A stretch of 64,000 nt of DNA from a bacterium (lineage in GTDB: Bacteria > Elusimicrobiota > Elusimicrobia > Elusimicrobiales > UBA9959), in assembly GCA_021786295.1 (NCBI GenBank), contig JAJYNO010000019.1:1-64000 (forward strand), given 5' to 3'. The position numbers and the translations under genes are program-made. A model generated the notes under the pieces. That model saw only the letters and a list, made by a program, of their open reading frames with translations. It was not told the origin of the DNA and did not search any database. Below, piece after piece: positions 60,020 through 62,931 of this stretch (its first letter is position 1; each line of letters begins with the position of its first letter).

Positions 60020-60088
60020 ATTCTACAAAAACAGAACCGCCGGGCTTCCCCGGCGTAAGTTAGGAAGATAGGAAGCAACGTCCCTGGC
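60020..60088 (-). repeat. Tag-hairpin-promoter repeat, type copy
   Basis: On the minus strand, right after the stop of the truncated kinase gene, comes the tag GGGACGTTGCTTCCTATCTT (from 60084). The stem CGCCGGG-GAAG-CCCGGCG (60055-60038) follows, then TTCTGTTTTTG and TAGAAT (60025-60020). It ends one gene and starts the phosphorylase gene. Confidence 0.7.
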
Positions 60089-60229
60089 TTATGCCTCCCA
60101 GAACAGCGCGTCCAGCTCGATGTCCGTCAGCCCGAACCTCGCCGCCAGCCTCCCCGCCAGCACGCTCTTCCCCGCCCCGCTAGTCCCCACCACCAAAACC
60201 CTCGACCTCGAACTGAACATTCCATTCAT
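60089..60229 (-). pseudogene. Truncated copy of the P-loop kinase gene
   Basis: This 46-residue frame (MNGMFSSRSRVLVVGTSGAG...) is almost identical to the first 42 residues of the gene at 62377-62925. It breaks off after DALFW and runs into EA-stop. The DNA identity spans about 60097-60258 versus 62799-62955, including promoter and hairpin start. Only the Walker A region remains, so it is presumably non-functional, though its promoter looks intact. Confidence 0.85.
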
Positions 60230-60236
60230 CCCCAAA

Positions 60237-60273
60237 ATTCTACCAAAACAAACCGCCGGGGAGCTCCCGGCGG
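60237..60273 (-). repeat. Hairpin-promoter half of a repeat interrupted by the IS
   Basis: The stem CCGCCGGG-AGCTC-CCCGGCGG (60273-60253) is followed by TTTGTTTTGG-TAGAAT (60242-60237), 7 nt before the truncated gene's ATG. The tag half lies on the far side of the insertion element, near 61678-61698. Confidence 0.65.
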
Positions 60274-60293
60274 CTTCAATTAGAATGATATGT

Positions 60294-60303
60294 TGAGGTG
60301 TCA
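60294..60303 (+). repeat. Left subterminal inverted repeat
   Basis: TGAGGTGTCA is the exact complement of the right copy at 61657-61666; the match extends imperfectly to about 17 positions. Confidence 0.7.
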
Positions 60304-60363
60304 TGCCTCCTCCAACTGATAGTGTTAAACTATCTTTGGGAACAAAACCAGAAGGAGGAAGAC

Positions 60364-61437
60364 ATGACACAAATGCGAACCGCACAACTTGCGGGCAACT
60401 GCGACGTCTTTTGCGGCATCGACGTGGACAAGAAAAGCTTCGCCGTTACGTTCAAAGACCGCCTGAATATGAACTATAGCAAGAAGATGCCCGCGGAACC
60501 CGAGTACCTCTGCAATTATATAAAAAACCACTTCGCCGGCAGGCAGGTGCTGTGCGTCTACGAAGCCGGCCCCACAGGCTATCATCTTTACGATCACATG
60601 AAGCGCAAAGGCCAGGCTTGCGTGATAACCTCCCCCATCACGATGAGGCGGGCCCCGAACGAAAAGGTCAAGACCAACCGCCTTGATTCCGTAAAGCTCG
60701 CGGAGGAGCTGCAAGCCGGTCTTCTAAAGTTCGTCCGGGTCCCTGAGGGCGCTTACAGGGAACTGCGCCAGCTCGTCAAAAGCCGGGAGGACTACGCTAT
60801 AGCGGTAAAAAAAGCGAAGCAACGGATAAAAGCGCTGCTGCTGTATAATCACCTCGAATCGGACCTGCGGGAGCCGGATGCGGGCTGGTCTAACAGGTAC
60901 ATAAGCAGTTTGAAAGAACTTGAATGCGGTCAGGGCGCCAGGCTGCGGCTGGACATGCTTCTGGCCGACCTGGACTACGGACGGCGGCAGACGCTTGCCA
61001 TACTACGGGGGCTGAAATCTTTTTTCAGGGAACACCCCGAGCTTGCAACCCACTTAAAGCATCTGCAGAGCATTCCAGGCATAGGCTTTGTGACCGGCAC
61101 GTCCATCCTTGCGCGGATAGGGGACCCGGCCGGACTTAGGTGTGTGCGTGAACTTGGTGGATTCCTCGGAGTTGTCCCGAAAGAGAGCTCAACGGGGGAC
61201 CGGGTAACAAGAAGCTCGATCACCCACCTGGGCAACAAGGTTCTGCGCGCCCTTATGGTGGAGGCGGCCTGGGTGGCGATACGCAGGGACACGGAACTGG
61301 GACAATTCTATCACCGGATACGGCTGCGGCACCACCCGGGGATAGGCGCGAGGAAAGCGATAGTGGCGGTCGCCAGGAAGCTGACGCACAGGGTTTACTG
61401 TGTGCTGAAAGAACAGCGGGACTATATCGCGCGCTAA
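60364..61437 (+). CDS. IS110-family transposase (recombinase)
   Basis: This 357-residue DEDD recombinase has the RuvC-like N-terminal domain: D20 in CGIDVDKK, E67 in YEAGPTGYHLYD and D108 in KTNRLDSVKLAE, where the usual first Asp is N105. The C-terminal Tnp domain has HLQSIPGIGFVTG and FLGVVPKESSTGDRVTRSSI with the conserved Ser (S275/S276), then LRALMVEAAW. AAGGAGG precedes the ATG at 60364; the frame opens at 60298 but without homology. Confidence 0.93.
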   Translation: MTQMRTAQLAGNCDVFCGIDVDKKSFAVTFKDRLNMNYSKKMPAEPEYLCNYIKNHFAGRQVLCVYEAGPTGYHLYDHMKRKGQACVITSPITMRRAPNEKVKTNRLDSVKLAEELQAGLLKFVRVPEGAYRELRQLVKSREDYAIAVKKAKQRIKALLLYNHLESDLREPDAGWSNRYISSLKELECGQGARLRLDMLLADLDYGRRQTLAILRGLKSFFREHPELATHLKHLQSIPGIGFVTGTSILARIGDPAGLRCVRELGGFLGVVPKESSTGDRVTRSSITHLGNKVLRALMVEAAWVAIRRDTELGQFYHRIRLRHHPGIGARKAIVAVARKLTHRVYCVLKEQRDYIAR

Positions 61438-61440
61438 GCC

Positions 61441-61601
61441 GTTTTCAGGATCAGGAGCGATTCCTATTGAGACGACTCGACTAATTCCAGAAATACGATT
61501 CGCAATTAGAAAGAGACTCAGAAGGAAAACGACGGAAGAACCATAGAGTGCGTCCTCTTGGGAGGAGCCACGAATAACAGATAGTTTCGCGTCCTGAAAA
61601 C
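61441..61601 (+). ncRNA. Candidate bridge RNA in the IS right end
   Basis: A perfect 10-bp pairing (gttttcagga 61441-61450 with tcctgaaaac 61592-61601) would close a 161-nt RNA. Inside lie a stem ctaatt/aattag (61481-61486, 61504-61509) with a 17-nt loop, and a hairpin tcctc-ttgg-gagga (61553-61566). The size and position after the transposase gene suit the right-end bridge RNA of IS1111-type elements. No coding frame spans it. Confidence 0.55.
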
Positions 61602-61656
61602 AGCTCGTCAGTTAGGAACCGTTAAGAGGACAGGAGAGCGATCCTGTATGGAAGCT

Positions 61657-61666
61657 TGACACCTCA
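61657..61666 (-). repeat. Right subterminal inverted repeat
   Basis: TGACACCTCA pairs exactly with the left copy. A hairpin cagga/tcctg (61631-61646) lies just before it. Confidence 0.7.
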
Positions 61667-61689
61667 CATAACAGGACTTAGGAATGAAC

Positions 61690-61770
61690 GTCTCCTAGCC
61701 CCTACCAAAACAAAACCGCCAGGCACCTCCCGGCGGCTCCGATCAGGGATCAACGACCCCTATTCCCTTC
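61690..61770 (-). repeat. Degenerate tag-hairpin repeat copy
   Basis: On the minus strand GGGGTCGTTGATCCCTGATC is followed by a hairpin with one mismatch (61736-61716) and TTTTGTTTTGG-TAGGGG. The -10 is destroyed, and no minus-strand gene follows. The stretch 61438-61808 holds no protein gene that I can support. Confidence 0.55.
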
Positions 61771-62294: not shown

Positions 62295-62319
62295 CGCCCC
62301 GAAATCCCGCCCCTCCCCC

Positions 62320-62376
62320 AAAACAGAACCGCCGGGCAATTCCCGGCGGGTTAGATCGGGAGACAACGCCCCGCAG
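62320..62376 (-). repeat. Tag-hairpin repeat copy with dead promoter
   Basis: On the minus strand GGGGCGTTGTCTCCCGATCT follows the stop of the kinase-like gene. The perfect stem CCGCCGGG-AATTG-CCCGGCGG (62349-62329) comes next, then TTCTGTTTTGGGGG. It acts as terminator; no -10 is left. Confidence 0.65.
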
Positions 62377-62925
62377 CTATAACTGCCCCGCGCTAGCCAG
62401 GAGCTCCGCGGCCTCCCGCGGCCTTTTCAGGCGGAGGATGCGGAGATGCGGGTAAGCGTTATCGCGGATGAGCTTTTCGTACTGGCGCTTGTTGGAGCCG
62501 TAAGTCTGCAGCGCCCAGAGGATGATGGAGTCCCTGCTGAAGAAGACCATCCGCGCGCTCTCCCGGTTGCCGCCCCAGAGCTTCTTGCGCTTCAGGATCC
62601 TGCCGACGGACCGCCTGGTCACCCGCCAGAGCACCACCGGCAGCGCGTAATCCAGCCAGATGACCGTATCCGCCCTGCCCCAGGTAAGGTCTTGCACCTT
62701 GCTGTAGTTCCCGTGCACCACCCAGCCTTCGCCCCGGGCCATGGCGCTCTCTATGCGGCCGCGGAACACGGGCTGCTCCGCCTCGGTCCAGCCGGGCCCC
62801 CAGAACAGCGCGTCCAGCTCGATGTCCGTCAGCCCGAACCTCGCCGCCAGCCTCCCCGCCAGCACGCTCTTCCCGGACCCGCTGGTCCCCACCACCAAAA
62901 CCCTCGACCTAGAACTAAAATCCAT
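62377..62925 (-). CDS. FlaR-like P-loop kinase (adenylate kinase fold)
   Basis: This 182-residue protein has Walker A GTSGSGKS (about 13-20), IELDALFWGPGWTEAEQ and a WVVHGNYSKV segment. DTVIWLDYALPVVLWRVTRR is typical of proteins annotated as topology modulation protein FlaR. The true substrate is unknown. The ATG at 62925 lies 6 nt after TAGAAT, suggesting leaderless translation. A truncated near-identical copy lies at 60089-60229. Confidence 0.8.
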   Translation of the reverse strand: MDFSSRSRVLVVGTSGSGKSVLAGRLAARFGLTDIELDALFWGPGWTEAEQPVFRGRIESAMARGEGWVVHGNYSKVQDLTWGRADTVIWLDYALPVVLWRVTRRSVGRILKRKKLWGGNRESARMVFFSRDSIILWALQTYGSNKRQYEKLIRDNAYPHLRILRLKRPREAAELLASAGQL

Positions 62926-62931
62926 CCCCAA

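Follow-up and report, generated by a model that had tools for sequence, protein, structure and literature searches.

We propose that the insertion sequence at positions 60284-61674 of the window, the 64,000-nucleotide stretch of bacterial DNA analyzed here, is very probably an IS1111-group element of the IS110 family in which the non-coding region behind the transposase gene encodes a structured guide RNA (a bridge RNA or seekRNA) that defines the insertion site. The preliminary description of this DNA had assigned it to the same family and group, with an RNA of the bridge/seekRNA type in the right-hand non-coding region, and our analysis supports that assignment. The element belongs to a small natural series in which the guides of four members and the sites of a fifth can be read. 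Across this series the guide RNA has apparently been retargeted: in the window to a position beside an intergenic hairpin repeat, in L018 to what looks like a miniature transposon end, in L019 to an open reading frame and in the fifth element to short tandem words. The series confirms, outside the experimentally studied elements, that a reading of the right end predicts the target, and it supplies recombinases whose active-site pattern is unusual. All features described below are on the forward strand unless stated otherwise.

The element, its transposase and its relatives

The ends of the element were set from the tips conserved in four elements, ATGATATG and CATAACRG, with the shared AG (60282-60283 or 61673-61674) counted once. 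The subterminal inverted repeats, TGAGGTGTCA at 60294-60303 on the left and TGACACCTCA at 61657-61666 on the right, have 17-nt arms that are 88% complementary, with the first 10 bases perfect, and fall within the 7-17 bp range of the IS1111 group. Because the right-hand repeat reaches 61657-61666, the element must end near 61674, 73 bases past position 61601, and the earlier placement of its end at 61601 fails. The terminal extensions, judged by the conserved tips, are about 10 and 8 bases long, and the region 3′ of the transposase gene (61438-61674) is 237 bases long, versus 80 bases upstream (60284-60363). There is one full copy in its own genome (79% complete), where three other matches of 45-63 bases cover flank only. 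Among the papers searched, on bridge RNA and seekRNA, on IS110 and IS1111 and on miniature transposons, we found no report of this element.

The transposase gene (60364-61437, 357 amino acids) contains both Pfam domains of the broad IS110 family, the RuvC-like PF01548 (DEDD_Tnp_IS110) and PF02371 (Transposase_20), and its product scores 196.3 bits against the NCBIfam model NF033542, 'IS110 family RNA-guided transposase' (cut-off 140). A profile made from the four related proteins matches the two solved sequences, ISCro4 (9t56) and IS621. The catalytic residues of the window protein are D20, E67, N105, D108 and T277-G278, with S276 preceding T277, and hence it has N105 and T277-G278 where the broad family has the DEDD signature and a serine before the glycine. 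The IS1111 motif G(L)-P----S/TG is present, as GVVPKESSTG in the window and with GL in three relatives.

A scan of genome contigs gave 12 transposase loci, one of them, L005 from a Caldithrix MAG, 54% identical to the window protein and the other 11 at 27-34%, while a search of 101 genomes added L018 (60%) and L019 (55%) together with three loci at 26-28%; at E 1e-60, 340 genomes of the phylum gave no further transposase relatives. Since these searches yielded only three close relatives, with transposases 54-60% identical to that of the window, the comparison is one of four complete elements (window, L018, L005 and L019). A fifth, multi-copy element occurs in G039, the genome of L019, where the right end was found in three copies (L111-L113) and the left end in five (L123-L127), and it is known only by its ends because the contigs stop inside it. 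The right-end pattern matches 19 of the 340 genomes when up to three mismatches are allowed, and exactly only in the window, at one place in G048 (the genome of L018) and at four in G039; among 10 further places that were inspected, only three from G039 were usable, apart from possible relics. Another stretch in G048, L114, resembles a right end (38 of 42 positions identical to that of L018), is joined to the repeat at which L018 lies and may be a relic.

An RNA model run over 25 sources recovered the four elements, 3′ fragments of the fifth (L111-L113) and a weak match at L117 (12.3 bits, E 0.52). The last of these, in G053 (1491-1613 and about 1988-2010), is possibly a decayed right end of the same family broken by other sequence. 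A 26-bit match in G056 was set aside, the genome having no transposase relative by tblastn (best E 0.35). Nothing in Rfam reached the gathering score, and all six weak matches were under the cut-offs. Viral contigs contained neither transposase relatives nor the right-end pattern; 15 of them match the left-end pattern, and none of the 53 that carry the word GCCACGAATAACAGA has an IS110 gene (tblastn, E 1e-4). In the plasmid and phage collections no match among those listed reached 60% identity, the plasmid matches lying at 27.9-33.0% (the best 30 of at least 5000 records) and the phage matches at 25.2-34.1% (15 records).

Fold of the downstream RNA

The predicted guide RNA extends from 61441 to 61601, as delimited by its outer closing stem P1 (5′ arm 61441-61451, 3′ arm 61591-61601), which is based on duplex energies and folding. 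The 10-bp pairing and the 161-nt structured segment reported in the preliminary description were both recovered, as GTTTTCAGGA (61441-61450) and TCCTGAAAAC (61592-61601) are perfect reverse complements of each other and the segment folds with −45.8 kcal/mol (z −2.99, with one of 200 shuffles as good). The relatives rebuild the closing stem from other sequence, and the best partner of each 5′ side is the 3′ side of the same element. The duplex energies are −24.8 in the window, −31.7 in L018, −15.1 in L005 and −17.1 in L019, values equalled by 8, 0, 14 and 9 of 500 mononucleotide shuffles, respectively.

Inside this stem, the alignment of the four RNAs shows the constant words GACGMCTCG, AGAGACYC and GCCACGMATAACAGA, which frame two variable segments. 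The consensus fold, obtained with RNAalifold on the same four sequences after 9 of the 30 proposed pairs (8 of them in the guide loop) had been left out beforehand, has 21 pairs in three helices, with standard pairs in 96.4% of the cells and 10 of the 21 pairs changed on both sides. Stem P2 (5′ arm 61461-61471, 3′ arm 61517-61527) corresponds to helix 1, in which 6 of 10 pairs are changed on both sides and 95% of the cells are paired, and hairpin P3 (61548-61571) corresponds to helix 3, with both sides changed in 4 of 8 pairs; helix 2 is invariant across the four RNAs. In the shuffle control for the 21-pair fold, none of 500 shuffles reached the observed number of paired cells or of both-side changes, and 5 of 500 matched it in further pair types (15), another of the five fold measures, while sliding the structure along the alignment lowered the paired cells to 35.8-61.9%. 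Covariation of homologous right ends, proposed earlier as a check, is hence positive in the four elements with a readable RNA.

An internal stem with a 17-nt loop had also been described, and its two strands, CTAATT (61481-61486) and AATTAG (61504-61509), can indeed pair, but the stem is not conserved. Between the two guides described below, the longest paired run has 6 positions in the window, and in the relatives it drops to 2, 3 and 2. This stem is the window's two guides pairing with each other, which they can do because the target is nearly a direct repeat.

Guide segments and insertion sites

The loop between GACGMCTCG and AGAGAC begins with 8 bases that are antisense to the right flank and ends with 10 bases that resemble the left junction. 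In the window the likely right target guide, ACTAATTC (61480-61487), is complementary to 6 of the 8 bases of the right flank at 61675-61682, with an internal mismatch (C for A) at the third flank base, and the left target guide, GCAATTAGAA (61502-61511), shares 9 of 10 letters with the left junction 60276-60285. The earlier left guide CAATTAGAA, noted for the identity of 61503-61511 with 60277-60285, is upheld as the left-side guide. In L018, L005 and L019 the right guides match their own flanks at 7, 6 and 5 of 8 positions and the left guides at 8 of 10 in each, and in all four elements the complement of the top strand lies 5′ of the match to the bottom strand, which is the guide order of the IS1111 group.

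Pairing each guide with its own flank is the best of the 24 possible permutations for both guides (24 versus 18 for the right, 33 versus 31 for the left and 57 versus 49 for the two together), the floor of this test being 1 in 24. When flanks were drawn at random from the same loci 20,000 times, the right-guide sum was reached once and the left-guide sum never. The register could differ by one base from element to element, a freedom equally given to the random draws; a neighbouring register applies to L018 for the right guide and to L005 and L019 for the left. All left guides are rich in A and T and resemble one another in part, so much so that the L018 guide fits the window flank, and the L019 guide the L005 flank, at 8 of 10 positions, equal to their own-flank fits. 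The variation of guides with the target, which the preliminary description had also named as a check, is thus positive in the four elements with a readable RNA.

The target of L018 can be read from a population of sites. Its right flank, GGTTCACTGAAAAAGTC, occurs at 102 places in G048 with up to two mismatches, versus 2 for the reversed control, and many of the 100 places listed are arranged as inverted pairs, in most cases with a spacing of about 255 bases. At loci L132-L161 this repeat end often stands in such pairs, after TA, and it looks from its arrangement like the ends of a miniature transposon. Empty sites are readable at this 102-place repeat, and the L018 insertion fits the empty repeats. 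In 31 distinct upstream contexts from 30 of these loci, one of which is the L018 insertion itself, the three bases before GGTTCACTG are T in 29, A in 29 and G in 27, and the most frequent letters at the last eight positions give TTAATTAG. The left guide of L018 likewise reads TTAATTAG, whereas the flank of that insertion is TTAGTTAG; the guide thus agrees with the population of sites.

This bears on the idea that the right end is merely a structured untranslated region or terminator, the likeness between loop and flanks being due to chance or to captured flank sequence. Such an explanation gains something from the segment alone being only moderately more stable than its shuffles and from the left guide of the window running into element bases, but the same two loop positions vary with the flanks in all four elements, within constant words, and the captured-flank reading is disfavored because the L018 left guide agrees more closely with the consensus of the repeat's other sites than with the flank beside L018 itself. 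We consider it improbable. We give still less credence to the version in which TTCCTATTGA (61461-61470) was the second guide, a proposal that arose from its resemblance, with one bulge, to the complement of the empty site TCAATTAGGAA. Its best ungapped match, 7 of 10, is equalled by 800 of 5000 shuffles, and in L018, L005 and L019 the corresponding arms reach 5, 7 and 6 of 10 (as good in 4927, 1624 and 1955 of 5000 shuffles). The segment itself forms the 5′ side of stem P2, in which compensatory changes keep the pairing. The empty site TCAATTAGGAA itself presumes a duplicated TTAG and has to be revised, as the relatives place the junction at CAATTAG|GACTTAGG.

The flanks of the fifth element show a target preference within one genome, as four of its five left flanks end in G(A/C)GTT(T/C)ATAG, the remaining one ending in GAGAAAATAG, and all three right flanks begin with CGTT(T/C)AT(A/T)G. 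Its sites in G039 are repeats of the form GYTYATAG|CGTTYATWG, and the assembly lacks both its transposase and its guides; because the guides cannot be read, this element gives a prediction and not a test. L019 lies inside an open reading frame, and its flanks would join without an added base, because the frame on the left leaves one base and that on the right lacks two. This observation and the fit of L018 to the empty repeats bear on the absence of a target duplication, a trait of the IS1111 group.

In the window the joined flanks read CGGCGGCTTCAATTAG|GACTTAGGAATGAACGTC, just past a hairpin that is repeated at other intergenic positions. A search for an exact empty site of the window insertion found none; in a different genome the related copy L165 has GAATTAGGAATGAACG, which the right guide would, by eye, fit at 7 of 8 positions. 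A query containing the hairpin gave matches in 17 of 32 genomes of the genus, and the 60 hairpin-like matches listed follow a palindromic pattern, some being the same hairpin on the other strand and perhaps not all being one repeat. The hairpin unit ATTCTACCAAAACAAAACCGCCGGG..CCCGGCGG occurs in the window at 60020-60060, 60237-60283, 61699-61745 and 62319-62350 and elsewhere at loci L163-L176, is intergenic, recurs throughout the genus close to the starts of genes, always in one orientation, and is followed by a variable AT-rich stretch and, in many cases, by CGTCCCCTA. The idea that these repeats form an integron attC array is without support, because the integron integrase model matched in 32 of 32 genomes with none passing the cut-off and 13 of 14 control genomes match it likewise. 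On the minus strand, the open reading frames at 60089-60385 and 62377-62931 share a P-loop protein start (SRSRVLVVGTSGxGKSVLAGRLAARFGLTDIELDALFW), and the one beside the element (60089-60385) is a fragment only.

Proposed mechanism and active site

In the mechanism that we propose, the transposase and the guide RNA would excise the element as a circle, the joined ends of the circle would form a promoter (TTGACA, 18 bases, TATGTT) for both transposase and RNA, and the circle would be inserted into a matching site in one orientation. Within the loop closed by P2, the 5′ guide (61480-61487) would pair with the top strand on the right side of the target and the 3′ guide (61502-61511) with the bottom strand on its left side, so that the target site CAATTAG|GACTTAG would be defined by the two guides together. 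The multiloop segments beyond P2 probably read the element's own ends, as donor segments in the multiloop are reported for many IS1111 elements (PMC11208160), and the candidate donor guide is ATAACAG (61574-61580), identical to the right tip 61668-61674. The reading of the donor is inferred, since ATAACAG is invariant and the tip of L019 departs by one base; the making and binding of the RNA, the circle and the strand exchange are likewise taken from published relatives. The IS1111 RNAs described in PMC11187229 are 145-170 nt (long) and 70-100 nt (short), sizes that correspond to 61441-61601 and to its P2 part.

A promoter at the joined circle ends is published for relatives (PMC11187229), and in all four elements joining the ends would place the TTGACA of the right end 17-18 bases before the TATGWT of the left end. 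In the window the would-be −35 box is at 61656-61661 and the would-be −10 box, TATGTT, at 60289-60294, with a spacer of 18. The left repeat is also one arm of a predicted leader hairpin (60298-60370, folded without a shuffle control), in which it pairs with the region of the ribosome-binding site and start codon. All five leaders (window, L018, L005, L019 and L126) fold over the ribosome-binding site in this way, and in four of the five the start codon is, by eye, at least partly covered. Transcripts beginning near the circle promoter start give a less stable fold in 5 of 5, as a shorter RNA does anyway. If this arrangement is true, transcription from outside would make little transposase, because the arm formed by the left repeat covers the ribosome-binding site and start codon, while the circle promoter would start inside the hairpin arm and loosen the fold.

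IS1111 elements with guide RNAs, and their retargeting by a change of guide, are already published (PMC11187229), and insertion into transposon ends figures in the title of a work cited in PMC11208160, on IS4321 and the terminal repeats of the Tn21 family. ISEc11, ISPa11 and ISKpn4, the IS1111 elements with a seekRNA described in PMC11187229, share with the window a DEDD-type transposase, subterminal repeats, a long downstream non-coding region, the guide order, the joined-end promoter and retargeting between relatives. They differ in their terminal extensions, which are 7 and 3 bases (7 or 6 and 3 for the group as a whole), and in having DEDD with SG or TG, whereas the window has DEND, STG and its own RNA sequence. 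The domains of IS621 (PMC11208160, PMC11208158) and ISCro4 (9t56) match by profile and the two-guide target loop is shared; IS621, however, has its RNA upstream and uses D102 and S241, whereas the window has the RNA downstream, longer subterminal repeats and Asn/Thr (PMC11208160, PMC11208158). IS4321 (IS1111 group) resembles the window element in its TG motif and its 12-bp repeats and, like L018, targets a transposon end, but it is only 32% identical over 35% of the query and keeps Asp at the third DEDD position. The longer terminal extensions and the Asn in place of the third catalytic Asp would also suit an RNA-guided element of the broad IS110 family that forms a separate subgroup and is not a true IS1111 member, a placement that we regard as unlikely, since the subterminal repeats, the downstream non-coding region, the guide order and the G--P----TG motif all fit IS1111.

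What is less ordinary in the present element, read as a member of the IS1111 group, is the Asn/Thr active-site pattern together with the longer terminal extensions and the leader hairpin. All four elements have Asn as the third DEDD residue and Thr-Gly at the position of the catalytic serine. Thr-Gly is already reported for IS1111 (PMC11187229), and Asn in the third DEDD place did not occur in the descriptions consulted. In IS621 the third DEDD Asp bonds the glycine adjoining the catalytic serine (PMC11208158). We suggest tentatively, as a possibility to which we would give somewhat less than even weight, that the clade forms a subgroup of RNA-guided recombinases whose composite active site is altered (Asn at the third catalytic Asp and Thr at the covalent Ser), and that the left repeat also serves as the arm of a hairpin covering the ribosome-binding site and start codon, with the circle promoter starting inside this arm and loosening it.

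For a wider view of the active site, 47 loci and the window were offered to an open reading frame pattern that required D or N and S or T beforehand, so that other residues could not appear, and 33 rows remained after 15 loci without a fitting frame were dropped. Asp/Ser occurs in 25 rows, Asn/Thr in 6 (the window being counted twice) and Asp/Thr in one (IS4321), one further row has Asp without a letter at the second place, and Asn without Thr occurs in none of the 33; four rows are duplicate proteins (window/L209, L020/L200, L021/L197 and L022/L201). The Asn/Thr pattern is shared by a distant relative, the element L188 on a plasmid of Novosphingobium humi, whose region 3′ of the transposase gene (1710-1910) is strongly folded (z −3.88, with none of 200 shuffles as good).
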